A DNA stretch of 64,000 bases, taken from contig JARUPZ010000002.1 of the NCBI GenBank assembly GCA_031213475.1, positions 17,228,079 to 17,292,078 of the forward strand, given 5' to 3'. The notes beneath the pieces are model-generated. The model was not told the origin of the DNA, did no database searches, and saw nothing but the letters and a program-made list of their open reading frames with translations. Below, piece by piece: positions 2,467 through 63,845 of this stretch; within the stretch, counting starts at the first letter, position 1; each line of letters opens with the position of its first letter. The translations under genes were made by a program, and so were the position numbers. The stretch comes from Nereocystis luetkeana. Taxonomy: Eukaryota > Sar > Phaeophyceae > Laminariales > Laminariaceae.

Positions 2467-5376
2467 CTGCATCGCGAAAAGTAGAGGTTTCGGAATCTAG
2501 AGGGTCAGCTATTGCGCACGCCTTCCAAGGTTCAACTGGACGCGTCAACGAGAGTCCCCAGTCCGAACCACACACATCGATCAGCTTACGCTTCTCCCCT
2601 ATCCCAACCAATCCCCGAACCAAGCCGCAGCCAAACCTCGCCGCAATCGGCTACACACCATCAATTTTCTACCTGGTACTAGTTTTCCGCTGCAACAAAC
2701 AACAGCCGTGCGAGAAGTGTTTTCCTGGTCGGTCAAAAACCCGACGTGCTCTGTCCCGGCTTTGTAGGGATGCGAGAGCCTATGGGCATGCTACTACTAC
2801 CATGCATGAACATGAGTACACCCTCTCCCCCCTCCCCCCTCCTCTACACCGCCTCCCCATTTTTCTCTTGCCTGCAGGGCGCTGTGAACAAGGAAGCGCT
2901 CCTCTCCGCTCCTGAGACGATCCCAGAGGGCAATCATTCCGGTGGCGATCGCCCGGCGAAGGTTGGAGGTGACCAGCACCGACGACTTCGCGGCACCTCC
3001 CCGAAGGACCGTCACCGCCTCCGCAACCTTGCCGTGTTTAATAGTATAAAGAGGCGTGCGGGGGGGGGGGGGGGGCGCGGGGACTCATATGATGCATGGC
3101 CGTAGTCGTATGAGGAGGTGCGGGGGCGGCTGGGCGTACTCATATGTTGCTCGCCTTAGTCATTTGACCATTGACCACGCATCCCTTCCGATACGGAGCA
3201 CCGCTCCTACTCTTAATAGAAACACCTCCAACAGTTGGGCGCTCAGTACGTTGCTTCCATGTATAACACATTTTTTTGTTTCTTAATCTTACCCCCTTCC
3301 CGTTTCGCCGCCTGTGGCGACCGTCTGTCGCCTAGGATAGAGATCGTTTCCTCGCTTCAATCTATTTAATAGTGGACCAAACTTCTCCTTGCCAGATTCG
3401 TCTCGATCCCTCATCGCCTCTTCTGACACATCTCGTTCCTCCTTGTACATTGCACATCCTTCTACTGTGTGAGTTCTACTCTCTTGTTGCTTTGCCACCC
3501 GGGCACGCCCGTGCATCTACTTCCTCCTCCCCCCGGCTACTGGTATACCCCTTTCTCCTTTCTGGCAGATCCAGGTCCCTCACACGAAATCGCACTTTCA
3601 ACGTTCTCGGGGGGGGGGGGTATGAGGAGGAGTGTGTGTGGGGAGAGGGGCGTACTCCTTTTGTGCTTGCCTTGGTCATTTGACCATTTACCGCGCGTCC
3701 CTTTCGAGACGGAGCACCATTCCTACTCCTAAAACAAACACCTCCGACATTTAGGGCACTCAATACGTTTTTTCCCTACATTCCCTAGTTTCCTTCTTGC
3801 TAATGGGGGGGGGGGGGGGGGGGCGCGTACTCGATAGGAGAGATGCACTCGATCTCATGCATGGCCGTAGTCATATGACTATAGACCCTCGCATCCCTAC
3901 AATACCGGGACGGAGCACGTCGGGTTTTCACCGACCAGGCAAACATTGCTTGCACCAAGCGCGAAGCGCCGTGAGGTGTCCGGCGAGTCGCGTGAAGGGT
4001 GAGCTGCATCCTACCAGGTACCTGGTACTAAGAACCGCTTGTGACGCTAATGGGGGGGGGGGGGGGTATGAGGAAGGGGGCGAGGTGGGAGGGGGGGGGT
4101 GTACTAAATATCGTGCATGGCCGTAGTCGTATGACCATAGACCCTCGCATCCCTACAATGCCGGGACGGAGCACGTCGGGTTCAGGTGGGAGGGGGGGTG
4201 ATGAAGAGAGGTGCGGTGAGGGGGGGGTATGAAGAGGCGTGCGAGGTAAGGGGCGGGTGGGGTTGCGAGCATGAGGAGGCGCACGAGGGGAGAAGGGAGG
4301 GTTGCGAGTCCGAGGAGGCGCAAACAAAAGTGGACATACGAAACAGGGAAAGAGAAAACAAAAAAACAAAAATCCATGTTTCGCGAGAGGGACAGGAGAC
4401 AAGAGTTTTTCACCTCTGTACCGGAGAAGGTGTCCGGAGACTTCTGCAGGAAGCGAATAAGCTCCTGGGTCTGTCCACCGACACGAAAACACAGGCAAAA
4501 AACACATACGTGGCAAGTTTTTGGATTTACATGTCGCATTAGCGCGCTGACGGGGGGGGGGCATCGGTCGTACGGCTTAAAAACAACGGTTTTTCGCGAT
4601 ACGCGCCAAGTCAGCGCAGTTGCGAAGACGCACAACGGGTCGCTGGGGGAAAAAAAGGCAAACAAGCGAGCCTCTTGGGAGGCGAACACGGGGTGTCAAC
4701 AACAAACATCGACACAGCAAGAAACGCGGAAAAAAAACTTCGAACAAAACCCCACGTCAACGTCAACGACGACAGCGACACCAGAAGCGACAAATACGAC
4801 AACAAGAAACACCACCCACTGCCACCACCAACTACAACAGCACCCCCACCACTACCACCAACTACAACAGCACCACCACCAGCACCAGCACCAGCACCAG
4901 CACCAGCACCAGCACCAGCACCAACTACAACAGCACCACCACCAGCACCACCAGCACCACCACCAACAACTACAACAGCACCAACACCACCACCACCACC
5001 ACCACCACCACCGCCACCACAATCAACGAAAACCACAAGAGCAACACGACTACCACCACCACCACCACCATCGACAATAACAACGTTGGCAGCGGTGCAG
5101 GCGCCCGAACCAGAAGAAAAAAAACGCGCGGACCCCCCCCCCCTCGCAGTCACCTGCTGAATCCCGGTATTGCTGAGGGGAGAGTCGAAGAAGACACTGT
5201 CTCTGGTGGACAGCATCATCACCTCCCTCACGAAAGCCTTCACCAGCCGCACCAAGAACATAGGTCCGAACCCTCGGTTAAACACCTGTGTGTTCATGGC
5301 GAGGCGGTGGCCGTGGCAGCAGCAGATACATTCGGAACGCCACAAATGAGAGAGCGCACGAGAGAGAGGGAGACAC

Positions 5377-5409
<33 letters not shown>

Positions 5410-17036: not shown

Positions 17037-17067
<31 letters not shown>

Positions 17068-20000
17068 GGTGGTGGTGGTGGGAGTGCTTCTGGTTGCGTT
17101 GCGCGCGCGCGGCGCTCTCCGAGTTGTTGCTCACCCGGCCGGAGTATTGCTGTCCACGCGAGAATTTGGTTGATCCAGTTATTAATAGTTAGTTTGTAGA
17201 TTGGTCGGTTCGGTTTTGGTTCGGTTGGGTTTGTGTTCCGTTGGTTGGTTGGTTTGTTGGTTGATTGCTTCCTGCGTTCGTAATTACGCCGCGTTGGTGT
17301 AGGGTTGGCTCGGACGCGTGTCTGTGCCTTGTTGGGACGTCGCACGTTTTATCCCACCCCCCACCCCCGCCTCATGACTTTCGTTATTTAACGAGGCGTG
17401 TTTTTCGCGGCTGCTGAAAAACCCAGTTTCGCGCCGCGTGGCTGCTGGTCGCCCATTTCAGCTGCACCTCGGCATATGTCATAGGCTGCTCCTGACAATG
17501 AATCAATCGCAAGAACTTTTCGCTTAAAATGTGACCGCACAGGAGGAGACGAAGGACCCTGAAGACCGCGAGCTGGCGTGGCTCCTCGAGGTGGTCGGGG
17601 GCGGGCTGGTATCGTTACGGCTAGGCGATAGCAGCTTCTTGGCTGACGGGGTCGTGAGAGCCATCGCCACCTTCTGCACTGCGCTGCGCGAGTTGGACAT
17701 CGGGTGAGCGCAGTTCGGGACCGCAAGCTGACGAACTTTCAGATACGTAGCACTATTCGCGTGTGCACAGTGGTATCTCTCTTTGCCCGTTTTTTACACG
17801 TGCGAGTGCAAGTCCAGGTGCTCAATGAGCGGCACAGGGAATAAAAAAAAGCAAATAAGCGCTCTTTTACCCCGTGTCCCTGGCAAGAGACTACAGCACG
17901 GCGCGGCACGCTTTGCTTTACCGTCTTTTCGTCAAACATGAATATTGATATCGATTATTCATACGACTGTTAATTATTTTTTCGCTCCATTTCCCTCAAA
18001 AACCACATGTTGCTCTTCTTGACCGGGCTTTAAGATGGGTGGAGGGCTTTGCTTCAGGATGATGGGAGGGGAGAGGGGAAGGATTGTCTTCGACGACCTC
18101 GGCAGATCGCGCCCCCTGTCGCGTGTGTGAATTCCTGCGGTGTAAGACTCGCCCGAGGCAGCCCTGGCGGTTTTTGGAGCAGCGACCCCCCGGCATGCCT
18201 CTTGGGGCTATGCTGGACGCCGTTTTTTCCCCCTCACATATTCCTTATTCCCTTTAGAATTACACCCTCCTTTTTCAGGTGGCAAATCGCTTGGAATTTT
18301 ACTTTTGCAGTGTAGTAAAAAAGTTGAGAGCGTCCTACTGATAGATAGGGGCAACGCTATCGCTTCTCTTTTTGGTTCCTCCGTCGCGATCGCCGTCGCC
18401 GCCCCCCCCCCCCCCCCCCCGACGGTTTTTGTGCAGTGATCGGTTAGCCCGCGCTGACCCTCAACCTGCGTGCGCTCACGCGGCGTGCGTGCGCACTACT
18501 GTACGCTCGCATGCATTCACACTCGCCCGCGGGGAGATGCGGGCGGACTTCGCGATATTTTCTACGAGCGAGTGCGTGCGTGCGTGCGGTCAGTTGCGTG
18601 CGTGCGTGCGAACATTCGCTCGGTCGGTCGGTCGGTCGGTCGGTCGGTCGGTCGCGGCGCCTGTGTGTCTGTGCATCTGTCTTCCCGCGCGCCCCGGCCC
18701 TTGCCGCCGCCCTTGCCGCTCAACTCCCTCCACCCTTCCGCTCCCGCTCCCGCTCCCGCTCCCGTCTTGCCCCCCTCCCCCCTCCCGCCTCCCCTCTGGG
18801 TACCCCCCTCCCCCCCTGAGTATCGGCCTCCCCCTCCCCTCCTGATTATCCACCCCCCCCTGCTGATTTTCGGCCTCCGTGCTCGCTTTCTTATTTTGGG
18901 TGCGGACACCCTGCTCTACGCGCGAAAAATGAAAAAAAAATGAAAACATCGAAGGACCGAGTCTAGGTGTTCGCTGACGAACATTTTGGAGGACACTCTG
19001 GTGACCCTTTCCACGGCACAGTGCGCGCGGTCCCTGGTCTATCTGGGCATTCGGAATCGTCGCTGCCCTGGCGATTTGGACCTCAGCGCGTTGGGTACCC
19101 AAGTGAGAAGTGTGGGAAAAGGGGGGAGGAGGGGGGGGGGATGTTATCATGTCATGCATGGCCGTGGGGTCTATAGGGGGAGGGAGGTGTATTCATGTTC
19201 ATGCATGGCCGTAGGAGATGAGGGGGAGGGGGGAGAGGGTGCACTCATGTCATGCATGGGCGTGGTGTTATGACCATAGGTCCTCGCACCCCTGCGAAGG
19301 GGGGCGGAGTGCGTCGGGTTTCACACCAACCATGGAGGTATTGCTTGCAGGGGGGGTGGGGGGTGGGGGGGGTGTACTCATGTCGAGGAAGGATGAAAAT
19401 AGCGGGGCGCCAAAGCTATGATTGTATATGGTAGACGGGGTGAGTTCTGAGCTCGTCGTGGATATTGACTGACCGGATATCCGAATCTGGATTACTGCCC
19501 AATATCTTATGAAATCCCGTTATAGAGTGTGTTACGTTTTACTTGTCACATGCCTGACCAGTAGGACTGCTTCGTCCAAATGATTTTTGCGGCACTAAGG
19601 GCGTATGTACGCTACGTGCCACCCTTCAATTTGTACTGCTATTACTGGCTTGTACTGGCCGAATCAACCTCAAGTCTTACCGAGCACAGGCCCAAGTCAA
19701 GCTAGGAGTCTTCACAAGCACATCATCCAAGCACTGATCAGTGGCATAGGGTTGGGGTTAGAGTTGGGGTCATGGTTCCGGTCGGTGGATCGGCTTCAAG
19801 CGCCAAGCATACAGTAGTAGTTGCAGTAGTACGGTACTATTACGGGGGACCATATTAAACAGGACCTACGGTCCTCATAAAAAAAAACCTAAACATTTCG
19901 CTATTTTTTACTAACAATATTTGGTCCTATTTACTATGGCCCCCCGTAATAGTAGTACGATTAAAGGGTGGGACGTGGCTTATACACACGACTAGCGGCG

Positions 20001-28998: not shown

Positions 28999-29540
28999 TA
29001 GAGGGGGGGGGGGGGGGGTGTACTCATTATCGTGCATGGCCGTAGTCGTATGGCCATAGACCCTCGCATCCCTACAATGCCGGGACGGAGCACATCGGGT
29101 TTTCACCGACCAGGCAGACATTGCTTGCACCAAGCGCGAAGCGCCGTGAGGTGTTGGGCGAGTCGCATGAAGGGTGAGCATCCTACTAAGAACCGGTTTA
29201 GAGGCGGATTTTCATGTACTTAGATGACAGCATCAATGAATTGATTTCTGGTGTGGACACTTCCAGAGACAGCAATGGGGTTACTATGTAACTGCCTCTT
29301 GGGTGCCTCACCATATACACACTACGTGATACGATCATCCCCCTTGTGCGGAGTAAAGGTTGCCCCCGCACAAAAACGATTCAACTTGACCGCCAGCCGT
29401 GGTAACCGCCAACCCCCCCCCCAAAAAAAAAAACGGAACCCTGGCTGTCTAGCTCACGCAGTGAGAGACGGATTTAACAGCTTCGTTGCCAACCGACGCC
29501 AACCCAATCTAGGTATATATACCAGGTACCTGGTATGTAA
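28999..29540 (+). repeat. Family A element, near full length
   Basis: G17 is followed by the core GCATGGCCGTAGTCGTATGG and a body of about 530 bases reaching ACCGACGCCAACCC. An internal A/C tract occurs at 29407-29431. It ends next to a TACCAGGTACCTGGTA palindrome. Confidence 0.8.
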
Positions 29541-30503
29541 TATACGTCGGGTTCGGGGGGGGGGTAGATGTTCATGCGGCGTATGTAGCCGCTGAAATGC
29601 CTTCTATAAAGTGTTCATACTTGAGTATTCGCACAACAAAGCTGGCGACTGACAATGAGCACGATTGTGCCGTTTTTCTAGGGGGGCATGCAGCATGGCA
29701 AAGTTGTTGATGCCGGCGCACGATTTATAGGGGGGTGGAGGGCATGACGAACTCGTTTATGACAGCTCTCTCCGTAGTTATACGTGGCTCTTCACCACCC
29801 ACCGCTCTTGGACCGAAATGTAAGGACGGCTTTGACTTCATGTTTTACAGCACTATGCAAAACGTGATTCACGTTTCTGCCAGGAGTGGGCAATATGTCC
29901 AAGAGGATCTACGAGTAAACAGAGCGTTGGTGATGCACGTACAGCGCATACAAATAAATACTGGTAGCACGTACCGGACCGATCAGATCCCCACGCCATA
30001 TATATATCCTTCCGGGTAGGTATGTTCCTGATTTATGCTAGTGTACCTGGTGTATGTTTGCGATTTGCAAGATACTATATCGTGTTTTCACTGGTAGGGT
30101 CTGTACGGCACGCCACAGGTTTCCGGGCATAGGATTCTGTACGCCATTATATGACTCTGCACGGCAGATCTCAATAATTGCACATGCTGGAAACTACAGT
30201 ACATGATCTACTGGTAACTGGTAAAACAGTGCAGGTCGTGATCTGTCTGGTGCGTGCAATATTTGTGGTACGGCTTCGACACAGAACATGTAGAGCAGAG
30301 ACAACGATATTGTGCGTTGCCCTGCTGCTCCCCAGTGTACTGCTTATCTAACCCTTTTAGTAGTGCGGTGTACATGTACGTATATCTGACTCTAATTCTA
30401 AGTAAATTCGTCCCCAAAATGGGAGGGCAGTCTTGGGTTATCAACTGTGAAGGTTGGACGCTCGCACGAAAAGAGGTCACCACGGAAATATAAATCGCGT
30501 TTT

Positions 30504-31904: not shown

Positions 31905-31925
31905 GCAACAACAACAACAACAACA

Positions 31926-32008
<83 letters not shown>

Positions 32009-35045: not shown

Positions 35046-35063
35046 AACTCGATCGCCAACTGT

Positions 35064-35292
35064 AGCCGAGGGGGGGGGTGAGGGGTGTACTCAATATCGT
35101 GCATGGCCGTAGTCGTATGACCATAGACCCTCGCATCACTACAATGCCGGGACGGAGTATGTCGGGTTTTCACCGACAAGGCAGACAGTGCTTGCACCAA
35201 GCGCGAAGCGCCGTGAGGTGATCGGCGAGTCGCATGAAGGGTGAGCTGCATCCTACTAAGAACCGCTTGTGAGGCGGATTTGGAGGGGGTGG
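35064..35292 (+). repeat. Family A element, about 225 bases
   Basis: A G9 tract, then core and body to CTTGTGAGGCGGATTTGGAG. It lies 85 bases beyond the POLQ stop codon. Confidence 0.8.
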
Positions 35293-38300: not shown

Positions 38301-41300
38301 ATGTAGGATGAGGGAGTAAGAACCGGGCGTGGGGGGCGGGGGGGGGGGGGGCAAGACGAAGCCGTGGGTGAACGCCGCAGTGCAAGAAAGAGGTAAGTAT
38401 CCTCTAAAACAAAACAGCACGAGAATGCAGGACCGGGAGGACTCTTCTCTTTACCCCTCGCTCTTTCGCAGACACGACTCGTCCCCGTTCCCAACCTCTT
38501 TGCCGCCCTCCGACCTACCCACAGGTCTTGCAGTCTGCCTTGACTTTCTCCAGGAACTCGGTGAGCCTGGGATAGGTCTTCAAAACCGTCTGCCGCGTCT
38601 TCCACGCCTTCGGACGGCTCATCCCCAGCTGGGGGGCCAGCGCGTCGGCCGATTGTCCGTAGAGCACCCCATACACGACAATCTTGGTCTGAAAAATTCG
38701 TGGGCCAGGAAACGTATACAGTGGGGGTCGGCGACACGGTGGTGTCACGCAATACTTCGAAGTGTATAGCCGTGCACTAGGAAACCCATATTATGGGGAC
38801 AGCAACACGAAGGAAGCTATGACGGCAGTTCGTGCCCCAGGAAACGTACACCATGGGGGGCGACCGCACACAAACATGTCATGGAAAGGAGGGGGGAAGG
38901 TGTCTCAGCCGCTCTGGAGCGCCTGGGTCGACGGACGAACCGCTATCAAAATGGGAAATCTCAAGGCTTTGGTGGGAGAGGGGCATGGTTACTTCATCGA
39001 TTCGCTTTGCTGCCTCGTTTGCTTCCATACGGGAAACAAGAAGAGAAAAAAACGATCAGTTGAGTGCAAGCAAATCGTGTACTTGCAAGGAAAAAGACAA
39101 GGCGGTGCTTGGATTGAAAATTCAAAGGAACCATAATGACAAACGAGGGGTACTTGGTGGGGTGCGCTACTCCGAGGGAGAGTATCGGGAGTGTCTCCTC
39201 TTTACCGTAACGCCGAGAATATTCGCATGGCGTGGGCGCAATACATATAGGTGCTCAATCAATATTGCGCAGAAACGCTAAGCTCGACCAGAAGAAACAT
39301 AATGGCTATGACTAACAGCGAAGTACATCACTTTGGGCGGTGCCGTCTGCTTGGAACACACGTCCTGATGACACAAAACGTTGTTTCGGAGGAAGCACTT
39401 CTCTCAAGGAGGCATCGTTTCAACGGCAACGATGTGCCCCATAAAGAAAAATATAAAAAATGGCGAATATCGATTCGAGCGGACAGCACGCTCCTCCGAT
39501 TGAAAAGGTCTCACGTAGCCAAGATGCAATCCCAAACGAGTGCCCAACGAGAACTGCTTCCAATGAAAGCATTAAATTACCCGGCTCACAAAAACGCTTC
39601 CTCCAAACATACAAAACCCTACCAGCACAAGCGAATAACGTCTCCCCACAAGTTCATCCCTTCTATCTGGTACACCCCTTTTCCTGACTAACGCCTCCAC
39701 AGAGAACATCCAAGGTACAACACCCACCCCCAACAAACTCACCTATAAAATAAGAGAAGGGACTGACAACAAGAAACACGTGGTAATTAACTTTTATTTA
39801 CCGCTCGGAGGCAGAACCGTGCGAAAACCAACAAAAAATGAATACAATCGCAGTGGGGAAGCGGGGAAAAGAGACCCGCCCAAGAAGAGCAACTTCTAGG
39901 TGGGGCGAACATGATATCGGCTGGCTAGAATGCACACCCGACGGACCTGGCTTCGTTCTTCCACGGTGATGTCTGCCGCCTTCTTTCCGCCGCCTCGTAG
40001 GGCCGCGGCTATCTTCCGGAATACGTCGCCTCCGTCCGCGAAGACTCTCTGCAGGTCTGGGTCCCCCGAGAGATGTGCCATCAGCCGCATTTCGACCTGT
40101 TGAGACACACGAACACACACGGACACCAACAGGGGGACATGATGACGGGAGGGGGGGTGTACTCCTGTCATGCACGGCCATAGTCCGATAACCATAGACC
40201 CTCGGATCACCTACAATGCCGGAACGGGGCATATTAGGTTTTCACCGACTTGGCAGACGCGGCGGACGGGCACGATTTGCGCCGCACTTAGGCGCCCGTG
40301 AAGTTGCTCATGCTGAGCTATGCAGCAGGGGAGACCTGGATTGATGCCTCCTTTGAATGACGAGCAACATGGCGACTAGTGGCGCTTAACGCTCAGCAGG
40401 CGGCGGCTTTTCTGAGCGACTGCAACGAAACTACTACCACTGCCCCGTAATGTGAGCGGGGTGGTGTACTCGATAGGAGAGATGTACTTGATATCATGCA
40501 TGGCCGTAGTCGTATGACGACAGACCCTCGGGGAGGGTAGGTTAGACTCCCCGTGGGTAGGATACAGGGGCGGGGAGGGGGGTCGAGGTGTCTATTCCGA
40601 GAAGTTTACCTCGATCAACACGGACGCAAAAAAGAAGATCGCCAGGCGAACGGCTTTTCCTTCAAGAACGGACACTCCTGCAGTGGGTGGTCCCTTTCGT
40701 GCATGGTTGAAGGGTAGCAGCTACGGCAAGACGAAGCCGAGCTACGGCAGCACGTGCGAGTGCGAAGCAAGAGACAAAACCCCCCCGGAGGGCACTTCAT
40801 TTCACCGGTGTCCGCCATGTCGCGTAAAAACCGTACCTGAGAGTAGTCGGCGGAGACGAAAACATACCCCGGGGGCGCGACAAGGGCATCCCTCGGCCTC
40901 AATATGGCCTCATTTCCAAACCAGGGGCTTCGCCCCCCCGAGCCCCGCTCCAGCAGAAACTTAGCCTTCGCGTCACTCAAAAAGCTGGCGCGTACTCGAA
41001 ACACCTGGCGTATGGGGTCGCACGAAAAAAAAATGCCGGAAGGGTTGACCGGCGCGGCTTGATGCGTGATTTGTTGGTGCGTTCAGTGTTTCGCGTCATC
41101 GCGGTGCCTTGATTCCCGTGCATTAAGACCTATGCCAATGGAAACGCGAAGTTCAAAAGTTTTTCTTCAAATATATCGCTTTAAAAAAACAGCCGAAAAT
41201 TTTCTCGTACCGCCGCTGTGGAAAAAAAAGAGAAAAATGTTTGATTTTTTCTTTTTTTTCCCCCAACGGCTGCAGGCGGCGCAATTTGTGTTTTTCTGGT

Positions 41301-44300
41301 CGCATTTGTCAACACGGTGATCGAAACCAGCTCGTGCGACGATCGACACTCGATCTCGACATAGACTCAACCCACGGCCAACCCACTCGGTATCTGGCAA
41401 GCCCAACGAGTATAGATGACGGCCTCGAAGATATCAGGCGGATCCATGGTCTAGGGGGCTAGAGCTTGCCGGCGGCGTCCTACGGCATCCTCCCAAACCT
41501 GTAAAAAAGTCTATTTTTTGCCATTCGAGACGGATGGAGAAGTTTTGTCTTCTGTTTTGTGCAAACCAGCGGCCAAATGTTTTTTTATCACACGCCTGGT
41601 CAGCTCCCGCCACATGACACCGGCCATGGTGTGAAGACGGTGACCCTAGGGTGGGTCGGAGCCCCTAACGAGCGCACTCCGTTCAGAATTCATGACGCAA
41701 TCGTTGGTTTTGTTGATCGATGTCCGTCGAGGACTCGGAATCTCGCCGCTTCGAACCAAAGATCGGCCTGAGTTTTTCTCAATCCGATGTTGGCCCAACA
41801 TCGGCCCCAGATTTGCTTTTTTCGGGCTTTTCCAAAAGTTAGGAACTTTTTTTTTTTTTAGGTGGCCCATAGGAAGCGTGTTCTGATTTTTTTTGGTGGG
41901 TATCTTTGAAATTCAAACTTTTAATTGCAACTTCGCTGTACCATTGGCATAGGTCTAAGGGGGGCACTGCTTCGTGCGGACGGAAAACTGTGCATCTCTT
42001 GCTTTCGCTGATACCTGCAGGGTGGCCGTGGCACTTCAGGACAGCGACTAAAAAATAAGCATCCGACCACCCGGAGCTACGGTACGAATTTCCAGAGTGC
42101 TGTTGCTGCTGTATACAATAGCCGACACATGATTGATCGTCGAACCTCATTCGCCACTGGGAAAGACCGACACTCGGGGACGCAATGACGGCTTATCCAT
42201 ACGCGGACACCGCGCTGACGTTACATACATAACTACCGTATACGCTTACACATCACGGGCGAGCTCTTCCTCGTATAGTATACCAGCACACTCCTATAGC
42301 CCAGCAACAGCTCTGTTAACACAAAATTCGTTTCGTATCACGCATGTGACGTTCCGGATGAGTGCTCGCTATGTGACGAAAGGGAGGGAGCTGGACAAGT
42401 AGGGCACACATAATAGATGGGGCGGAAAAATAAAAAAACTAATTCGTAAATAAATAAATAAACACCAAGCACTCACGGGAATAAACAAATAAATAAATAA
42501 ATAAGTTCGTACCAGGTACATGGAAGAAAAATATCGCGCCGACTACTTGGCCGGGCGATTGAAGAAGGGACGAGCCCCGTGCAATGTCGGGTGTCAGCTC
42601 ACCTTGTCCGCCGGGTAACTGTAGACCTTCCCGGAGCCGCCCCTAGAGAACCCCAACCTCACCAAGACCTGGCGGGTTCTCTTAGCCTCACAAGGCGCGT
42701 AGGGATGCCCCCTCTCGCGCCAGAGGGACGCCTACCAATATTCACGTTTTGTTCATTCAGTGCGGGGGGGGGGGGGTGTACTCGATCTCATGCATGGCCG
42801 TAGTCGTATGACCATAGACCCTCGCATCCCTACAATGCCGAGACGGAGCACGTCGGGTTTTCACCGACCAGGCAGACATTGCTCTTGCACCAAGCGCGAA
42901 GCGCCGTGAGATGTCCGGCGAGTCGCATGAAGGGTGAGCTGCCTCCTGCTAAGAACTTGCCTTTGAGGCGGATTTTCTTGCATATCGATGACAGCGTCAA
43001 TGCATTGATTTAATTTCTGGTATGGCCACTTCCAGAGACAGCAACATGGGTTTACTATGTAACTGCCTCGTGGGTGCCTTACCATATACCTTTGGTACAC
43101 ACTACGTGATACGATCATCCCCCTTGTGCGGAGGGCAGGTTCTCCCCACACAAAAATCATCTACTGTAACTCGACCGCGAGCCGTGGTGACCACCAAAAA
43201 AAAAAAAAGCGGTACCCTGGCTGTCTAGCTCACGTAGTGAGAGGCGCGTTTTACAGCGTCGTCACCAACCGACGCCAACCCAGCCTATTTATGTACTTCA
43301 GTACCAGGTAAATAATAGGGGGTGGGGGGGGGGGGCAGAGAAAAAATTAAAGCGCCTAGACTCGGCTGCTCTAAGCTAAAACAAACAATTTTATGGGTGC
43401 GGGTGGGTGCGGGGAGTGCGTTTTGTTTTGCGTTTGTTGTGCATCCTCGTGGCCATATCTGTCGCTCTGCCTTCTCAGCGTTGGACAAAACAACTATCAA
43501 CCAAGTACAGCGTACGCACGCTGAGGTAGTTGCGGCTACACCGCATGGCACCGTCACGTACGCAGCTCGAAACACCGCCCTGCATTCTGCGACCAAACGG
43601 GCGTGGAACAATGGGCCAATATACACGCTCTACGCGCCCCCCTACAACCAACTCCGTTTCAGCAGCTGACCAAAACACCACAACGAAAAGGCCACGCGAA
43701 ACGCAGACGCGGTCGACCGATCATCACTACCACTGCCCTGAGCTTTTTACCATTAACATGTTCTCAGCGGCGTGTGCTATATATACCAGGCGCCACGATG
43801 TCTTACCTAATGACAAAGAGACAGTGCCGCGTTCGAGGTCTACAGCGATGACGATGCTAGGGGTCACAGTTCGCTGGTCCAGGCGGTGGCTGGCGGACAG
43901 GTCGGACCTTGTCGACCGACAAGGCCCGAGACATTTCCCTGCCTAAGCTGATTTCCCTTTGCCCAAGTTACGCGCACTGGGCTCGGAGCACATCACGCGC
44001 CCTACTGTAAATAAGCTCGGAAATTTAGGGCGGCCATGCCACGAGTACCTACTGTAGCCAGCTTGAAAATCCTTCGCGGGGTCATACACCCAGTAGTAGT
44101 ATGCGCGATCGCAGTATCACTATAGATAGTATCACAGGAAGCTCGAAAATATGAGGCTCCACAAAATCCTCTCACAACGGTTTGGTGTATTTTCGATGTT
44201 TAGGGCCGGTCTTATCGAGGGCAAAATTAACGGAAAAAAAAACGAAATAGAACGAACAGACTTTCGTTTTTCGCAAAAAACAGCAGGCTGAGTCCTAACG

Positions 44301-46140
44301 AGGGCAAAAAAAACGAAAAAAAAACGGAACAAAAATAAGAAGCCGAGTCGATTTTTTACGCGGTGCAATTTTTCGGAATGACTCAACCGCCACAGCACGT
44401 CGTTCCCGGCGATAGCGCTCGACAGCGACGGTGGATAGACACAACTCACACACGTAAGGCACCCTCCACAGCAGGCGGTTCTCGTGGTCCAACCCGCTCC
44501 CTACGGAGTGCTCTAGAACTTGTGTATCGGCCATCGCAGTTCGATGGCAGACGTTGGAATGTTGAGTGGGACTCATGTCCAAAAATTTACCGCCACAGCC
44601 ACTTCCTGATCCCCCGGTTTCTTACGAGGGCACCCCATGGTGATTCCCTACCCATATGTGCTCGCGCCGTCAGCAGACAAGCCGCGTGGCAGCCACATGC
44701 GCTACCTCGGCCATCGTGCGCTTGCCAACCGGTCGTAGAAACTTTATCGGAACTTCATCCCCACGCGTCGAGCTCCTCCTATGTTCCTCTTCGACCCTGG
44801 GTATCCCATATTTCCTTTATTTGGCACCCATTTCGTTTTTTTTAAGTCCTCTGGGACTTAAAAAAAACGAAATGTGAAAACGGAGGTATCGGGATCTCTA
44901 CTTCTAATTTTTACAATTTGACCAATAAAACTCACGTACTCTTTAGTTCTGTTTTTCGTTTTTTCATTTCGTTTTTTTCGTTTCGTTTATTTTGCCCTCG
45001 ATAAGACCGGCCCTTATTCGTAAAACAAACTAAACATAGGACCGCATGCAACAACTTTTGACTCGCCGCATTCGCGGGACAGGGATAGGCTACACGCGTA
45101 TGCCCATTTTTGGCGCTCACCATACTTTCTGCTGTGAGAGGGCCGTTCCGACCGAGATCGGCCCCGCAAGGGGCGACTGCAGCAGCGTCGGCACGACCCG
45201 TGGTGGGCAGCTTGTAGATAGGATCCTCCACGCAGCGGTCTTCGACGATGCCCACGATCTCTCCCGCGCTCATGGTGGTGTGGTCATCAGATTTTGCCAC
45301 TACAACTCTACGACGGGAGAAAGAAAAAATAAGCCGAATGATGGGCGGTCACAAGCGAACGAAATGGAAACGTTTCGTATGCAGAGCGTCTTCAGAGTCT
45401 CTCAAGGAGGCCAGGGGGGGTGGGGGCGGGGATCGTCGGGGATCGTTCATTGGCAATGTGAGGCATATTGTGACCATCAGCCCGAACCATTGAGGAATCA
45501 AATCGTTGGAAATAGCGAGGGGGGGTTGTACTCATGTCATGCATGACCGTAGCCGTCTGACTATAGACCCTCGCATCCCACTAAAGCAGGGAGATGATAA
45601 GCCCGACACGCCCATCCACCACGTTGACCACCCGGCGGAGTAGAAACCGGCCGATGACCTAGCCGTCGTCCATTTTTCAAGTTGTAAATGTCCAAATCTC
45701 TCTGTCAAACACGACGGCAGGACCGAGCGCTCGTTTGGCACAGCGATAAATGTTACGTTCGGGGAAACGAATCCGGAGAAGTTTCTCCCAACACCCTATT
45801 GTGCTCAGCGGCGAATTCCGCACCAAGCACGACGACGATAAACCGTGCGTATCCACTCGTGAAAAATACAAGGCTTCGAACCCTACTGAGGCACATGCCA
45901 TTTGCACGCGGGTCGACGCCAACCCATCACAGCCGAAGAGAACTCAGCAAAGCGCCAAACATAAAAGGGGGGGGGGGGACTACGGTTCTAATAGCTGCAG
46001 CGGCCTCACCGGAGAGATTCCCGGACCTCTGCATCGATTTCTTGGCTTAAAGGGAGCCCACCGCCGGCTGACATCGCTCCTCCCGACGATACCCCTCCCG
46101 CTTGGCGTGGGCTTTCGTCTGCCCACACTCGCGGCACCAT
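35378..46140 (-). CDS. POLQ: POLQ exons: palm and fingers of the family-A polymerase
   Basis: Seven exons. 46010-46140 leads into RESLRPRDALVAPPGYVF (40837-40897), which ends ADYSQ; an intron splits motif A before VEMRLMAHLSGDPDL (39947-40096). 38519-38688 carries fingers motif B (KIVVYGVLYGQSADALAPQL). 37892-38050 has TLLGRRRYLP and ERQAANTVCQGSAADLLKLA. 37198-37381 has the catalytic HDE of motif C, and 35378-35554 the C-terminal helix and QLGKKWGSM. Both metal-binding aspartates (motif A DYS, motif C HDE) are intact, so the enzyme should be active. Confidence 0.93.
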
Positions 46141-52100: not shown

Positions 52101-55100
52101 GCCAGTTCTGAAGATATCATAGTCTTTCGTGAAAAATCTTTAGAGGTGCATTACTTCTGTCCCCAGTTCTGACAAAACAATGTCATTTTTGACCCTCCAG
52201 AGAAAAATGATAGGCTGCGCCAAAAACCAAACTTGAGACTCTGGAGAAACGAAAAGCTGTTTGTGAAAGCTGGCGGAAAACTCTGGGGAGCATCCTGAGG
52301 AGACTACCGGTGTCTTTGACTGTCCCGCCGAGTAAGTCGCGGGTGTTCGGCGCAAAAGCGCAGTGGCTGGAGCACAAACATAATTACCCCTAACAGATGT
52401 CTTAAGGCAACAAAAGTGCTACCCCCGATTGCAACCCCTATCGCAGCACGCGTCGAAAGACACATACCTCTCGAGGGACAAGCTAGCAGGAGACGCGCGC
52501 GGCGGCGGCGGGGCGGGCGTCTTGCGCTTCTTGGAAGGCCGTCGCTGCTGCGGAGGCGCGATGTCTTCAACGGGGGGCTCGGCCAGCCACCTCGCCACCG
52601 CAGGGTCCTCAAGCGGGCCACGAACGTTAAGGCCGAGGGATCTCAGACAGACTAGAGCGCCCTTCATGTCCAAACACACCTGGTTGACGCGGATGGTTGT
52701 CAGGGTCGGTTTGTTGAGGTTGGTGGGCGCCGTTCGTTTGGAATATGGTTCGGGGGCGAGGGGGGTGTATGTATTATCATGCATGGCCGTAGTCGTATAA
52801 CGGGGGGGGGGGGGGGTGGAAGACTGCAAGGCGCCAGAGTTAAAAGGGGCGAGGCGGCTGTGTAAGGGGGTGAGGTAGCGGAGAGCAAAAACCAAAGGCG
52901 GGTCAACCCGAGCCCATGAACTTCACAGAAGGGGTTGCAGATGCATTGCCACTATCTTTACCATGTTTTTTTGCGGTCGGCGCATCAAACAGATTGCATG
53001 CGTTGCAAAAGCGATTCCCACATAGGAGAGACGAAAACACGTTTAATGGTGGCGGCATCAAGTAACACAATCTCAATCAGCACCGGAAACACAAGCCAGG
53101 TCGGCAAAAATAAAAACAAGCACCTTGGTCGTTTTCTGGTTCTCCATCACATCTCGAAGGAGGCCCCACCGGCCGCTCGGCTCTGTGGCAGTCAGCCAAC
53201 AGAGTGCATCAACCTTTCGGGTTGTTTCACGACGAGGGGCGAGGGGCGGGGGCGCGGAGACATCGCCACGAAGCGCGAGCAATGTCATGCATTTTTTATT
53301 CAATACATACCTGGTTTGACTTTACATGTTTTTTCAAAATTGTAAATTTACCAGCAAACGAAAAAACGTTTCAGTTCATTACATATAGGTCGTTTTCATT
53401 TTACTCGGGAAACCGTCCAGGTACGTGTTAAAGAGAATCGTACCTTGCATCGCCGACCCTTGCCAAAAACAAGTTCCGAAACATGGGTCGCAACAGCACA
53501 GACCACGGATGGAAGGCTCGGGACAAACGGCTACCATCTGCCATTAACACTTACCTGGTACCTGTTAATTAGACAGCAGAACCAACCTCAGCAGGACACA
53601 TGCTATTACGAGTGCATGAAACGGAAGTGTTCATTAGATGCGTCCCATTTCCTAAACCAGTAAGGCAAAGCTAAACTGTTGCTCTAGGAGGCTGGACGCA
53701 GCGAACAAACCAGAGGGATACTTTTGGGTTCGAACCTTTCCAAGCTGGCACCTCTGGGGCGAACCCCTCACCCCTCGCTTCCATCCTAGGCTCGCACCAA
53801 AGACCCTACACATTTACCGGAACCAAAAAATGCCGCCACTAAAGTTCGTGTGTATGGAGTGACAAAAATCCTGCTCGCACCTACAACGCCCACATATTTC
53901 GCAACGAGTTTATTCTCACCCCAAACGCGTTCCACCTACGGCAGACGAGGAGAGCTTGGTTCCAGGGCTTGAGTCTACGTTGCTGGCGGCCACCGCCGCC
54001 GCTGCCGTCACTCTCGCGATGACGATGGCACCTCCTGCGCTGCCCTTCGCTGCTGCAGTCGGCACATAGCCAAGGGAACCCCACCTGACAAGATACACGG
54101 TTTGGGAGCTGAGGTTATTTTCGATTTGCATACTTATTGTTACGCGGTCATTGCTGCTTGTGGCAGAGTTGGGACCAGCGCCGTCCATTCGGGCTGCGCG
54201 AACGGCAAGCTATAGGTGTTAGATGGAAGTCACAAGCGGGCACCCTACCCTCTCGCCCAAAAATGCAGTTTCGGCTCTTTTGTGCGGCTGTATACGAAAC
54301 ATGGACAACATGGGGGTCACTTCAAAAGGTCCTCGTCCTTTCGAGTTCTTCTGCCCACCGAGTGGATTGAACAAGCTGGGAACAAGAGTCATCTGGCCCG
54401 GCCTGGAAACAGTCGAAGAGGCCGGTAGCCAGCCGTAGCCGGTCAATTGTGACAGACATTGCTTGCTTTTTCTGTTCTCGACACAATTTTTCACCGCGAT
54501 AATACCGCACTAAAAACCTATTGGCAACTCACGAAGAGCGCAATGGCCTCCACTGCTCTCTTTGGAAGGGCCTCCCAGCAAGTCGCAACTCTGCCTCCAC
54601 TTCGGCCGCTTGTGACACCGAGCGCGGTTGCCCGCGAATCATCCCCCTTCTGTCCCTTAGCTGGTCTTTTCAGTGCCGCCTCGTTTGTTGCTGACCCCGC
54701 GCAGCGCGCTGATGACACCAAACCTGCCGCTACTGCCGGGGAGCGACCGGTGGGAAGGTTTCCCCCGCCGCCGTCAATGTTGGCGATGCAGCCATCACTT
54801 GCTTGGTCACTCGAGCAGGGGGGCACTTGATGCCACTCGGTTGGGCGACGGGGTAGGAGCGGCGGAAGGGCCAAGTATTGGGCAGTCTTGCCGTCGAAAG
54901 AAACGGCGATGCCGCTAACCACTCGCATGCTTGGTGCGTTGAGGGAACGCGAAACAAAAAAAACAAGAGGGCGTGGGGGACGTGCGCAATTGAACGAAGG
55001 GGCAGACAGACGGGCAGAAGGGGGGGGAGGGGGGAGGTACAGGCCATCAGCTACAGGCTCCTACTTTGTAGAAAACTAGTATCACGAACAACGGATGGGA

Positions 55101-61100: not shown

Positions 61101-63845
61101 TGATCGGTGGCGCGTGTGCTTCCTTCATGGTGTGAGCGACGTATCACCTGGCCGAGGTTACAGCCGTCGGAGACGTCCTTGAGCGCCATCGCCGCAACGA
61201 GGCGTACGGCTTTCCGAGCCGCGCCACCGGCAGACGATTTTTCTTCTCGCCTTCTGTTCGCGGGGAGCAAGAAACAAAAAGTGGGGGCAAAACAACTTAT
61301 CAGTTTTCCTGTCGACACAACTCTATGCGAAAGTGATCTCGGTCATCTGTGCCGAAAACCTGCTGTGTGAAAGGGATACAGCTGTAAGCCCCGACATAAT
61401 ATACGCGGGTTCGGGCAGAAGCGGACCGTCAAAACCCGGCAAATAATTGAGGATCGTAACGCGACATGGCGCACGTGCTACGGTGTGTACACCCCACCCC
61501 CTCCCGCAGCAACCTCTACCCTTCCAAGGACATCCTATGAATCCACCCCCTACCCCGATCGCAACACGTCCAACCGAAGTGCACCCAAGCCACGATATAA
61601 CCCCCCCCCCCCCCCAGAATAAAACGCAACTTTCTCAGACCTGGGGGCCGTGTCTCCCGTCAAAGCCTCGCCTCGTCCACGCCGTTTCAGCGCCGCCTCA
61701 CACACCGCTGCCGGCGACACCAGCGGCTCGTCCTTCACCTTTCCGCTTGGCCCTCTCGATGCCCAAAGGTGCAGGTGGTTCTCGGTAATGCCTATCTTGC
61801 GGAAGTCCTCGACCAGATCGGCTCCCGGGCCCGCAGGCATTTCTTCCGCGGCAGCGCGTGCTTTGGAGTGCATCTTTAGATATAGGGTGGTTGGGAGCGA
61901 TTTGAGGAATGTCGGATGCAAACGGTGTTGGCAAGCCCAGCTGGATGATACCGTAAACTGCGCGGGGGGAGCATTGCTGTCACTGACCTATCAACTAACC
62001 TCTGAACCTGCACCCATACGTTTGGGGATAAGCTACTGGGAACCATTGTGGGATATAATCCGCGGTAGCCAAAGAGGTAAGGGGGGGGTTGTACTCATGT
62101 CATGCATGGCCGTGGTAGTCGTGTGACCATAGACCCTCGTACCCCTACCATGCCGGGACGGAGTAGCACGTCGGGTTTCCACGGACCAGGCAGATGTTGC
62201 CTGAAGCAAGCGCGGAGCGCCGGGAGCTGTTCGGCGAATCGCATGAAGGTTGAGCTGCATCCTACTAGGAACCGAGTGTGAGGCGGACTTTCTTGAATAT
62301 GGATGATTCCGTCGGATGGGTTGATTTATTTTCTGGTGTGGCCACTCCCAGAGACAGCAATGGGGGTACTACGTAACTACCTCGTGGGGGTCTTACCATG
62401 TGCACACCACGCTAGGGGGGGGGTGATAAAAGAGGGGCTTGGGTTCAGCCCGCGGCATTGAAGCACAGTATGTATTGGGGATAGCAACTATGGAATAAAA
62501 TATGTTGTCCTGCCATAGCCAGCGGCGTGCAAGGTGAGGGGGTTCATATGCCTTGTGATTTGCTGCGCGCTTCTGTGCAGGTTTCCATCAGTCTGTAAGC
62601 AGAAAAATGGTAGAGGCGTGCACTTTTGATAGAGGTAATCCTTCGCGTGTCCTGCGCAACACTCAGAGTGCGGGACGGGGGCGTGGCAGTTGGACGGGGC
62701 GTAATGCGACACAGCACTACCCACACCATGCTACAGTCGCACTATATACTGATCCCTGAGCACATGGCCAGGAGCGAAGGAAATCGTCACACAGGCTTAA
62801 ACCGCAATAAAAACATCGAACGTTACACGTGCACCTCTTTTCACCTTCCCAGCGCCCAACAAGGCCCGTCTGCGCGCTGCCTCCCGACGGGGGGTGCGTA
62901 TACTGAAACCTCCAACTCTCTGCCCACACCAGAACTCACCGCGCACAAGCGTTCCCAGTTCGGTTTAAGCCCCGGCGGTGGGCAGAGAGGGGTGAGCAAG
63001 TACGCCAGGTAGAGGGGGTTGCGGAGATTTATTCCATTCTTGGCCTCTGAGAAGTAGGCGTTTCATCGGAGGGGGCGGGGGAGAGGGGTCACGGTCAGTA
63101 CTCGAGCGCAAGAAGGAACCTCGACTGCAAGAATTGGCCGGTTTCAGAGTATTATGAAGCATTTGGCGAGGAAAACAAGCTCCATACGAAGCTGACAACG
63201 CAACCTGATCTCCACCGTTAACCGAGAGAGGACTGTGTGGGGTGTTTCTTCCGATGTACGTACCCCCTGTCCCAAGCATCGCTCCATATCCAGCTCAGCG
63301 TCTGCTACACACATTGCAGGTCAAACGGATTTCCACCCACTCACTTCAGCGTACGCCCGTAAAACATTTCTCCTTTCCCGCACCCTTCGCTACACACGAA
63401 CCCGTGTATGTACCTGCGCACCGACGTCTGGCACCCACTCTACCTGACAAATCTCGGTATACCACCAACCCGTCTCCAGGCGACATGGAACTCCGGAAGA
63501 TAGCTAGACCGAGCTTCGTCGGTACCAGCCATCTCTCCGCTTCCCCCGCGCCATGATCGCTTTCGGTGTGGGTGGAAACCCGACCTACTGAAGGGAAGTC
63601 GACTCCAAGTGGGGTCCCTTGTTGGGGCTTTGGGCGTTTGGCCGGGGGTGGGGGATGCGCGGCGACTCTGCGGTTTCCTCGAGCAACTTTAGCTTCCCGC
63701 TCTCTGGTCGTGGGCGGTGCAACGAGCTCGACGCACCCCTCATCGATCAGGAGTTGGATGGATGCCCAGGCGTAGTCGTGGATGACTTCCCGGCCTGCTT
63801 TATCGGGCTGCTGGTAGAAGATCAGCAAGCACGAGAGGAATTCGG
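35378..63845 (-). CDS. POLQ: DNA polymerase theta (helicase C-terminal part, linker and complete polymerase domain), 5' end outside window
   Basis: Minus-strand gene, 24 exons in the window, all joined in phase: 1,811 residues to the stop at 35378-35380. POLQ performs microhomology-mediated (alt-EJ) double-strand-break repair. Exons: 63444-63845, 62940-63046, 61641-61873, 61148-61253, 60092-60184, 59549-59641, 58899-59036, 57465-57662, 56668-56996, 55246-56397, 54533-54929, 53920-54084, 52468-52679, 50151-50271, 49434-49580, 48523-48729, 46838-47143, 46010-46140, 40837-40897, 39947-40096, 38519-38688, 37892-38050, 37198-37381, 35378-35554. Diagnostic motifs: KLGLAIFRSSMSPGDGLVVY (helicase winged helix), KGELQSLRQSTATFSGMVAS (ratchet), TTTGRMVTSNPPLQNL, ADYSQVEMRL (motif A), KIVVYGVLYG (motif B) and SIHDELVYEV (motif C). 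The order helicase-linker-polymerase separates it from bacterial PolA, POLN and HELQ. The helicase ATPase motifs lie beyond position 64000. Confidence 0.95.
35731..36042 (+). mobile_element. Family B GATC-rich MITE
   Basis: It starts CACACCTCAGACAGATCATA and contains a short CAGATCATA tandem, then CCCACCTGCCGTTGTGAGAG. It ends in ATTTAACCGAGGTGTG, the inverted repeat of the start. It lies upstream of the POLQ last exon, in the 1.6 kb final intron. Confidence 0.75.
36755..36835 (+). repeat. 37-base tandem duplication
   Basis: GAACTACACCCACGCTTTTG with GGGACAAACC occurs twice. In the last POLQ intron. Confidence 0.85.
40146..40262 (+). repeat. Family A element, short copy
   Basis: G-tract, TGTACTCCTGTCATGCACGG, then body to TTCACCGACTTGGCAGACGC; about 110 bases. 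Confidence 0.7.
40456..40540 (+). repeat. Family A element, very short copy
   Basis: GGTGTACTCGATAGGAGAGA, then the core GCATGGCCGTAGTCGTATGA and about 15 more bases. It has the same duplicated TACTCGATAGGAGAGATG start as the copy at 3830. Confidence 0.7.
41335..41775 (+). repeat. Family F dispersed repeat
   Basis: Contains TAGAGCTTGCCGGCGGCGTC, TTTGCCATTCGAGACGGATG and CCACATGACACCGGCCATGG, matching the inverse of 14165-14815. It lies in the 5.1 kb POLQ intron. Confidence 0.7.
42435..42505 (+). repeat. AAAT microsatellite
   Basis: Two AAAT runs separated by 22 bases. Confidence 0.85.
42762..43300 (+). repeat. Family A element, near full length
   Basis: G12 tract, core and full body with an A13 tract near 43200, ending with ACCGACGCCAACCCAGCC. 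Relative to the 28999 copy it carries a nine-base insertion flanked by TAC at about 43086-43097. Confidence 0.8.
44203..45013. mobile_element. Family D: Harbinger-like non-autonomous DNA transposon
   Basis: Perfect terminal inverted repeats of at least 24 bases begin GGGCCGGTCTTATCGAGGGC on the left and are mirrored exactly at 44990-45013. The flanks carry a three-base target duplication TTA (44200-44202 and 45014-45016). A TWA duplication and GG-starting repeats are typical of PIF/Harbinger. The 811-base interior has no recognisable transposase and contains a perfect 20-base hairpin at 44830-44873. Confidence 0.85.
44830..44873. repeat. Perfect hairpin inside the Harbinger-like element
   Basis: Arms 44830-44849 and 44854-44873 are exact inverse complements (ATTTCGTTTTTTTTAAGTCC) with a four-base loop TCTG. 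Confidence 0.9.
45519..45592 (+). repeat. Family A element, very short copy
   Basis: GGGGGGTTGTACTCATGTCA then GCATGACCGTAGCCGTCTGA and the body to CCCTCGCATCCCACTAA. Confidence 0.65.
46525..46782 (+). repeat. Family G minisatellite, second locus
   Basis: Three and a half units near 69 bases, containing AAAAAGGTACAAGTACCTCT and ATCGTAGCATGCGTCCATA. They share the GGTAC..GTACCCC..CGTAGCATG skeleton with 20108-20575. Confidence 0.8.
46838..54929 (-). CDS. POLQ: POLQ exons: exonuclease-like domain and thumb/N-terminal polymerase region
   Basis: Seven exons: 54533-54929, 53920-54084, 52468-52679, 50151-50271, 49434-49580, 48523-48729 and 46838-47143. GIAVSFDGKTAQYLALPP and VCLDMKGALVCLRSLGLNVR are the exonuclease-fold strands; the usual DxE catalytic residues are absent, as in other POLQ proteins. 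Exon 54533-54929 also contains a roughly 100-residue low-complexity insertion. HRDLDLRLHDLESVAGQLAG and PKRIHDILYSTLGV are the thumb region. 46838-47143 ends with the template-primer motif TTTGRMVTSNPPLQNL. Confidence 0.9.
49068..49320 (+). mobile_element. Family B GATC-rich MITE
   Basis: It starts ATACCTCGGACAGACGGATC, then CTAACCTGCCGTTTCGAGAT and CCCTGGAAACATG, matching the 5652 copy most closely. It lies in the POLQ intron between exons 49434-49580 and 48523-48729. Confidence 0.7.
50812..51255 (+). repeat. Direct repeats of about 80 bases, 360 bases apart
   Basis: GTAGTATTCTGGCTCTCTAC and GGATGAGGCCTCCT blocks occur at 50812-50895 and 51173-51252. In a POLQ intron. Confidence 0.85.
51769..51840 (+). 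tRNA. tRNA-Glu (CTC)
   Basis: This 72-nt cloverleaf has acceptor arms TCCCTCG/CGAGGGA, D arm GTCC..GGAT, an anticodon stem TATGA/TCATG enclosing the loop CTCTCAC (anticodon CTC), and a perfect T arm CCGGG-TTCAATT-CCCGG with B box GGTTCAATTCC. There is no intron. A run of eight T at 51845-51852 is a canonical RNA polymerase III terminator. The gene sits antisense in the POLQ intron between exons 52468-52679 and 50151-50271. Confidence 0.93.
51845..51852 (+). terminator. Pol III T-run terminator of tRNA-Glu
   Basis: Eight consecutive T residues start five bases after the tRNA discriminator base. Confidence 0.8.
51955..52350. mobile_element. Family C MITE, second copy
   Basis: Same organisation as the copy at 8730: GGTCAAAAACGCCGGTAGAC at the left and GAGGAGACTACCGGTGTCTT at the right, with the shared middle CAGTTCTGACAAAACAAT and TTTTTGACCCTCCAGAGA. 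It lies in a POLQ intron about 115 bases after the tRNA-Glu gene. Confidence 0.8.
52755..52816 (+). repeat. Family A element, minimal copy
   Basis: GGGGGGTGTATGTATTATCA followed by the core, ending after GTCGTATAAC and a new G15 tract. Confidence 0.65.
55246..57662 (-). CDS. POLQ: POLQ exons: disordered central linker
   Basis: Three exons: 57465-57662, 56668-56996 and 55246-56397. Exon 56668-56996 is acidic and Ser/Gly-rich (EAEGDELDRVMAAF, EDSDSDENDDVEPE). The large exon has low complexity, with a short conserved-looking patch KRKISEASPAARAAKILMTP. Central linkers of POLQ vary strongly in length between lineages; here it is short (about 560 residues), without clear RAD51-binding motifs. The first exon's start could alternatively be a few codons downstream (ccag|TTT). 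Confidence 0.8.
58899..61873 (-). CDS. POLQ: POLQ exons: ratchet and helix-hairpin-helix region
   Basis: Five exons lie here. 61641-61873 contains EDFRKIGITENHLHLWASR; its donor gtctga is the least certain. 61148-61253 contains AVRLVAAMALKDVSDGCNL; 60092-60184 has KVYGMNKGELQSLRQS; 59549-59641 has ELGWGMFLMLVKGYIPKLSL; and 58899-59036 has GISRTEASALYQGGFLNAKN, the helix-hairpin-helix-like end of the helicase module. The middle exons are exact multiples of codons. Confidence 0.9.
60555..60845. repeat. Two opposed tRNA-like segments in a POLQ intron
   Basis: At 60568-60650 (minus) there is GCGAGTTCGATCCTCGC, a paired T arm with B box. At 60768-60840 (plus) there is an A-box TGGTTCAAGTGG and B box GGGTTCGAGCCC, followed by an A-rich stretch. 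Acceptor arms do not pair. These are probably tRNA-derived SINE remnants. Confidence 0.45.
62080..62420 (+). repeat. Family A element, about 330 bases
   Basis: G7 tract, TTGTACTCATGTCATGCATG, then a diverged body through GACAGCAATGGGGGTACTAC to CACACCACGC, where a new G tract follows. Confidence 0.75.
62940..63845 (-). CDS. POLQ: POLQ exons: helicase winged-helix region
   Basis: There are two exons (63444-63845 and 62940-63046). The first carries YAWASIQLLIDEGCVELV, a low-complexity insertion, then WLVPTKLGLAIFRSSMSPGD, the signature after the helicase core in theta-type helicases. The second gives LAYLLTPLCPPPG, the conserved LTP block. The Ala/Pro/Lys-rich insertion (about 63560-63690) is longer than usual for the family. 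Confidence 0.9.

Follow-up and report, generated by a model that had tools for sequence, protein, structure and literature searches.

A SINE-like retroposon of a brown-alga genome that probably inserts into C runs, and its likely LINE partner

The window analyzed here, a stretch of 64,000 nucleotides (G000:C2:17228079-17292078) from a host genome of 465 Mb, holds a dispersed repeat, family A, whose copies meet G-rich tracts at one end and vary in length at the other. Read on the opposite strand, as an earlier note on this DNA had proposed, the repeat resembles a 5'-truncated retroposon with a poly(C) 3' tail; the locus therefore raises the question of whether the C run belongs to the element or to the site that received it. 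The evidence collected below makes it very probable that family A, an element of ~520-540 bp, is a non-autonomous, SINE-like retroposon that depends on a LINE and prefers C runs (G on the other strand) as insertion sites; a mechanism for this is proposed after the description of its likely LINE partner.

Copies of family A and their one-sided truncation

Family A was searched by BLAST with two full copies, and then with the family consensus. The window contains 17 copies by this search, in line with the original estimate of about 17 sharing a core, with the correction that the copy at 3136-3186 more probably represents the 3' end of a LINE copy (3134-3609). Allowing 3 mismatches at most, the 20-base core GCATGGCCGTAGTCGTATGA is found at 10 places in the window and nowhere in 100 shuffles. 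In retroposon sense the element reads TATATTATATACCTGGTATATA ... GATAATGAGTACAC, then C(n), with a long T run in its interior. On one strand (retroposon sense = minus) lie 16 of the 17 window copies; in random regions of the genome the two orientations are represented by 11 vs. 9 copies. The features of the window are as follows (strands in retroposon sense; tracts and duplications are given without strand).

2708..2829, plus strand: 5'-truncated family A copy; interrupted C-rich tract on the 3' side, none at the truncated end
3083..3113, minus strand: very short family A 3' fragment near a G16 tract (3060-3075)
3134..3609, minus strand: 5'-truncated copy of the partner LINE, 83% identical to positions 3733-4199 of the L053 LINE; G11 at the truncated end
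3650..3804, minus strand: another partner LINE copy, 5'-truncated (LINE positions 4047-4199), adjoining the G19 tract
3799..3823: target duplication, first copy, GCTAAT + G19; GCTAAT is LINE sequence
3824..4045, minus strand: 5'-truncated family A insertion beside the LINE copy; its 3' terminal GAGTAC segment is duplicated
4046..4066: target duplication, second copy, GCTAAT + G15
4099..4182, minus strand: 5'-truncated family A copy between two G tracts
19131..19381, minus strand: nest of four family A fragments, all very short and in the same orientation, with G-rich tracts between them
24421..24476, minus strand: 5'-truncated family A copy
29003..29018: G16 tract at the 3' end of the full-length copy 29018..29554
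29018..29554, minus strand: full-length family A copy; the consensus alignment covers 29018-29528
29555..29564: G10 tract at the 5' end of the full-length copy 29018..29554
34678..35058, minus strand: 5'-truncated family A copy, consensus positions 139-524
35085..35281, minus strand: 5'-truncated family A copy, across a G tract from 34678..35058 and in the same orientation
40157..40258, minus strand: 5'-truncated family A copy, truncated end without tract
40483..40530, minus strand: 5'-truncated family A copy whose 3' terminus is duplicated
42764..42776: G13 tract at the 3' end of the full-length copy 42776..43317
42776..43317, minus strand: full-length family A copy
43318..43335: G5-T-G12 tract at the 5' end of the full-length copy 42776..43317
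45527..45592, minus strand: 5'-truncated family A copy, truncated end without tract
52765..52801, minus strand: family A fragment; interrupted tract on the 3' side, G15-type tract on the opposite side
62090..62411, minus strand: 5'-truncated family A copy with a G tract at the truncated end

Truncation was counted in 37 copies that pool the 17 of the window with 20 from 22 random 10-kb regions of the same genome (~218 kb in total; 2 matches to the T run only and 2 at region edges were dropped before counting); the LINE end at 3136-3186 is included in this set, and in the set of 28 truncated copies used below. The G-tract end, scored as kept within 15 nt of the consensus end, is reached by 17/17 window copies and by 17/20 copies of the random regions; the far end, scored within 30 nt, is reached by 2/17 and 4/20, respectively. 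The pooled counts of 34/37 vs. 6/37 bear out the retention of the G-tract end and the loss of the far end that had first been described, and differ from the equal truncation at both ends that had been named as evidence against a retroposon. Truncated copies start at many consensus positions, from 139 to 497, and the aligned lengths in the window range from 28 to ~540 bp.

A first look at the whole genome returned 6,773 family A candidates; 40 were scored, and the 39 copies outside the window were 85-90% identical. Family A reaches a density of ~92 copies per Mb in random DNA (20 copies in 218 kb) and 266 per Mb in the window, and its genome total is estimated to be of the order of 40,000 copies, a rough extrapolation from the 218 kb. 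Tens of thousands of copies, if this estimate holds, are relevant for annotation: the short fragments resemble minisatellites or low-complexity DNA, and it is easy to mask or overlook them. Among full-length copies the median pairwise identity is 86% and the best pair reaches 91%; the compared copies are therefore not very young. In one subfamily the 3' terminal GAGTAC segment is tandemly duplicated (GAGTACATCTCTCCTATCGAGTACACCCC); it is represented in the window at 3824-3860 and 40470-40500, and in the loci L016, L018, L027, and L030.

Like SINEs, family A is short, non-coding, dispersed, and present in high copy number; its 5' truncation and constant 3' end are those of a LINE-dependent retroposon. 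The two full window copies contain no ORF of at least 200 aa, and the best matches in a scan for pol III A and B boxes were unconvincing, in agreement with the lack of coding capacity and of clear pol III boxes noted at the outset. One window copy and 12 full-length loci gave no Rfam match near the gathering score to tRNA, 5S, 7SL, or any other known RNA; a weak likeness of the core to the start of 5S rRNA was dropped after this search. Since a tRNA-, 5S-, or 7SL-derived 5' head with a pol III promoter was not recognized, family A is termed SINE-like and not a SINE in the strict sense.

The C/G tracts at both junctions

Tracts were scored in retroposon sense by a strict criterion of at least 8 C in 9 nt, no more than 40 nt from the junction. 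On the 3' side, 12/17 window copies have such a tract, and the five others (at 3136, 24421, 34678, 40483, and 52765) have shorter or interrupted C-rich stretches. In the pooled sample, 26/34 copies that reach this end carry a strict tract, and G tracts are accordingly present at most copies. A true RNA tail, encoded or added, could leave this pattern by insertion without target specificity: the tract is commoner on the 3' side than at truncated 5' junctions, and several family A copies carry it on the 3' side only. Yet the truncated ends, whose tracts the earlier note had not described, are left unexplained by a tail alone. The truncated 5' end adjoins a C tract of the same polarity in 15/28 copies, compared to 5.7% of local control positions (150-600 nt away, same strand, N=2006; binomial p 4e-12), and a tract on the wrong strand in 0/28; random regions (8/13, p 8e-8) and the window (7/15, p 5e-6) agree. 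Such a concentration of insertions in one sequence type, together with one empty site described below, is that of a site-preferring element.

Since a tail cannot place C at a truncated 5' end and a duplicated C-tract target can, the target reading is favored; the tract is regarded as mainly target because tracts of one polarity lie at varied truncation points and because one empty site retains its tract. The poly(C) tail of the original description survives as a C run at the 3' end; this stretch is not, or not only, a tail of the element and is better explained as its insertion target. A tail inserted without target specificity, which would also leave the empty site and the co-oriented neighbors discussed below without explanation, is unlikely. 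As a caveat, 13/28 truncated copies fail the criterion at the truncated end, five of them with shorter or interrupted C-rich stretches and eight with none (the LINE end at 3136 counts among these eight); duplication is therefore not universal, or some of the C is supplied by the RNA.

Homopolymers slip easily, and a combined account, a refinement of the target explanation and not its opposite, would have the RNA end in a short C run, the site consist of a C tract, and the tract length be altered later by slippage. GAGTAC(A/G) junctions followed by C runs of widely differing length, in family A as in the LINE, agree with this account; no measurement here separates templated C from target C, and we consider its prospects evenly balanced.

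A tract without its insert is directly visible at one site. At L030:8560-9060, a family A 3' fragment lies between G12 and G13; the related sequence L014:7220-7600 (~75% identical) lacks the fragment and reads GGCAACGGT-G13-CAGAATAAA, its G13 uninterrupted, and thus contains the G tract without insert. This was the one genuine case in an automated empty-site search of 54 copies with repeated flanks, and it represents a paralogue, not an allele; the other flagged pairs were repeats of the element itself or derived from the duplicate contig L007/L008.

Target duplications, listed in the earlier note as a check on retroposition, were found in two family A cases and one LINE case, each consisting of the tract plus 6-9 bases. 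The window copy 3824-4045 has GCTAAT+G19 on one side and GCTAAT+G15 on the other. Since GCTAAT makes up the first part of the LINE copy next to it (3650-3804), a piece of the LINE was duplicated across the insert. A family A copy in L003 has the flanks C11 AAAGATCAA and C11 AAAAGATCAA, with eight extra bases preceding the consensus 5' end, and the LINE in L053 lies between C9 AAGTAGATG and C14 AGTAGATG. A systematic search for duplications extending beyond the tract gave only a weak signal, with 3/73 copies scoring at least 9 compared to 1.2% in re-paired controls; one of these three, located within a tandem nest, is unlikely to be a true duplication. A weak signal beyond the tract is expected, though not proof, if duplication mostly stays inside the tract, and many more copies are consistent with duplication of this kind.

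Neighboring copies less than 100 bp apart share their orientation in 7/7 pairs (one pair includes the LINE end at 3136), as expected from a polar target; some neighbors of family A copies, beyond what had been noted before, are LINE copies. Short nests with expanded tracts (3083-4182 and 19131-19381) resemble minisatellite growth, and could suggest that the copies were cut down and multiplied not by retroposition but by recombination or slippage between G tracts, a fragile and G4-prone DNA. However, the truncation points are spread along the element, dispersed copies on many contigs share one end, and the target duplications and the empty site fit insertion; recombination or slippage may contribute to the nests but is quite improbable as the general origin of the copies. 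The two full window copies have G tracts at both ends, which by itself would suit a DNA transposon with G-rich ends; these tracts are direct and not inverted, contrary to the inverted terminal repeats that such an element had been predicted to show, and given also the one-sided truncation and the terminal ~70 nt that belong to a LINE with reverse transcriptase, a DNA transposon is extremely improbable.

The supply of targets was surveyed in a 282-kb sample, which contains 221 C/G tracts of at least 7, compared to 29-47 in five mononucleotide shuffles, and 80 G/C tracts of at least 10 vs. 46 A/T tracts. GAGTAC is the hexamer most enriched shortly upstream of C tracts in this sample (28-fold). 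A GTAC-type end borders 27/221 tracts; most tracts are therefore not bordered by an element, and a large supply of targets exists.

A LINE with the same 3' end and a possible insertion mechanism

A genome profile search for the LINE endonuclease family PF14529 yielded 5 matches from 13 candidates. The match on contig C27 (locus L053) belongs to an element with RVT_1 (1.7e-24) and Exo_endo_phos_2 domains, the latter at 1e-5 and 25.8 bits in the ORF (whole-protein cut-off 27.4) and at 29.7 bits in the genome search. The best PDB matches of the L053 protein include L1 and R2 proteins, and human L1 ORF2p shares the best E-value. No LTRs were found in L053, where self-comparison showed only repeats that can be traced to family A copies and to the truncated LINE copy that follows; judged by its domains, endonuclease and reverse transcriptase, the element is a non-LTR retrotransposon. 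Its reading frames are interrupted, and it is 5'-truncated relative to L051 and L052. This LINE starts inside a family A copy's C tract, and its end reads GCAACAAATGAGTACG at C14; it is followed by a truncated LINE copy with an internal repeat, which ends at C7, and then by a family A remnant.

The LINE 3' ends on contigs C27, C5, and C7 read GAGTACG followed by C14, C16, and C13, respectively; those on C5 and C7 were placed by their expected distance from the endonuclease matches, with ~1 kb unread in between. A fourth endonuclease-bearing locus, on contig C2 (L055), gave no LINE match within the stretch examined. Over the terminal ~70 nt, the LINE and family A can be aligned (11 LINE and 12 family A sequences), with the consensus GTGCTCCGTC..GGGATGCG..GGTC.ATGGTCA..ACTA.GGC..GAGTAC. 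For the shared 3' RNA, a closing helix GUGCUC/GAGUAC with inner hairpins is predicted; 94% of its pair cells are standard pairs, compared to 27-46% with slid partners, in a structure derived from the same alignment, and the covariation measures in this alignment are indistinct from those of shuffles. Family A thus has its 3' end in common with an autonomous-type LINE of the same genome, as LINE-dependent elements do, although the L053 copy has interrupted frames and no intact copy was found. By this common end the L053 LINE is the likely autonomous partner of family A, the kind of element with reverse transcriptase that the earlier note had suggested looking for; the one-sided truncation and this LINE together uphold the reading of family A as a 5'-truncated retroposon on the other strand.

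A second, abundant LINE (L054, G000:C13:4577000-4584500) has an open frame of 1250 aa with EN and RT domains, and a G11 tract ~540 bp downstream of the ORF. It was rejected as a partner: its match to family A consists of the T run only, and GAGTAC at a C tract does not occur there. Among 4,777 genome candidates for RVT_1, the 150 that were scored all lie within 126.6-129.7 bits, so close together as to suggest a single family of recent amplification.

The mechanism that we infer for family A would begin with binding of the LINE protein to the shared 3' RNA end and its predicted closing helix. The LINE endonuclease would nick a C/G tract at its edge, on the G strand, and the free ...GGG-OH would pair with C at or near the RNA 3' end, however much C the RNA itself may carry, and prime reverse transcription (target-primed reverse transcription). 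Reverse transcription would often end prematurely and leave truncated 5' ends, and the duplication would comprise the tract and at times a few adjacent bases. Insertion would in this way leave tracts on both sides in which later elements could nest in one orientation, one insertion creating the landing site for the next. In its broadest form, a LINE and a non-autonomous element would jointly perform target-primed reverse transcription on C:G instead of A:T, with an endonuclease that nicks G runs and a self-regenerating target that produces directional nests and G-rich repeats genome-wide; this extended scenario is put forward tentatively, as possible rather than probable.

In L1 and Alu, the nick falls at the edge of a homopolymer, the primer pairs with a homopolymeric RNA end, and 5' truncation and target duplication follow; the L053 LINE and family A differ by using C/G for A/T, and by the 3' sequence common to the LINE and the non-autonomous element. 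What is known best about LINE target choice concerns A/T-rich nicks and complex sites, rDNA among them. We know of no earlier LINE system specific for mononucleotide C/G runs; if the interpretation is true, the present system would be the first. With a pair for which plain C/G runs serve as sites, one could ask in a simple way which of the two, endonuclease or RNA end, dictates target choice, or whether both do; C/G-run targeting would also help to explain the G-rich nests in this genome. At the level of titles and the beginnings of abstracts, no report on C-tract or poly(C) LINEs was found in the open-access literature searched; in the text accessible for one study of the L1 endonuclease, poly-C and poly-G appear only as overhang controls (PMC12809410).

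By text description, the closest known counterpart of family A and the L053 LINE is RTEX-N1_Ec32 with RTEX-1/-2_Ec32 in Ectocarpus (PMC12477816). RTEX-N1_Ec32 is described as a non-autonomous element of ~600 bp and the most abundant single family of the Ectocarpus genome, with >6000 copies; its 3' end is conserved with autonomous RTE-X LINEs, and its 5' end is of undetermined origin (PMC12477816). Family A resembles it in size, abundance, a LINE-shared 3' end, a 5' end without known source, and a brown-alga host, a likeness at the level of published descriptions (PMC12477816). The main-text passages on RTEX-N1_Ec32 mention no C/G-tract target, and the words 'homopolymer' and 'guanine' are absent from them; figures and supplements may differ (PMC12477816).

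A 3' end common with a LINE is also seen in stringent-type LINE/SINE pairs as described for UnaL2 and its SINE in eel, where the SINE 3' end comes from the LINE 3' end and is taken as the recognition signal (PMC3747384). Stringent-type elements are given poly(A) or poly(T) tails there, or tails of short repeats, for instance TGTAA or TTG, whereas family A ends at a C tract that is probably mainly target; family A differs further in that a pol III-type head was not recognized (PMC3747384). Insertion of LINEs into simple repeats is known from the microsatellite-targeting non-LTR elements Togen, in (TG)n, and some HERO elements; compared to the accounts of these, the L053 LINE and family A are distinguished by a mononucleotide C/G target, an Exo_endo_phos (APE-like) endonuclease, and an abundant non-autonomous partner with the same target (PMC4640811).

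Other repeats and genes in the sampled sequence

The 9-mer TACCTGGTA/TACCAGGTA occurs at 81 sites in the 282-kb sample, compared to ~2 expected under a uniform model, mostly in unrelated contexts; sites in the window include 563, 2670, 4012, 7906, and 29520, and the number scales up to >100,000 per genome. Three altered 8-mers occur at background frequency, and the surroundings of the 9-mer have a palindromic preference centered on TA. Among 104 sites searched, 16 have an aligned insert-free relative, several of them ambiguous in TA-rich ends; at L016:2623, L053:5762, and L023:831, the relative clearly has plain TA. The 9-mer looks like a 7-bp insertion CC[AT]GGTA at TA, such as a DNA transposon that targets TA would leave behind on excision, with a footprint of 5 bases that is unusual; a source element did not turn up in the sampled sequences.

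Two minisatellite-like arrays in the window (20239-20574 and 46529-46773) have units of ~46 and 33/68 bp containing GGTACTGTACCCCC or GGTACAGTACCCC; they were set aside as relatives of family A, the GAGTAC end not being seen in them. One of 8 ORFs scanned, an open frame at L010:1-2730 (minus strand), combines a NADAR domain with a reverse transcriptase, a combination reported for Gypsy elements of Ectocarpus (PMC12477816) and a hint that the host is a brown alga. The only above-threshold Rfam match in the window is a tRNA-Glu (CTC) gene at 51769-51840 (plus strand).
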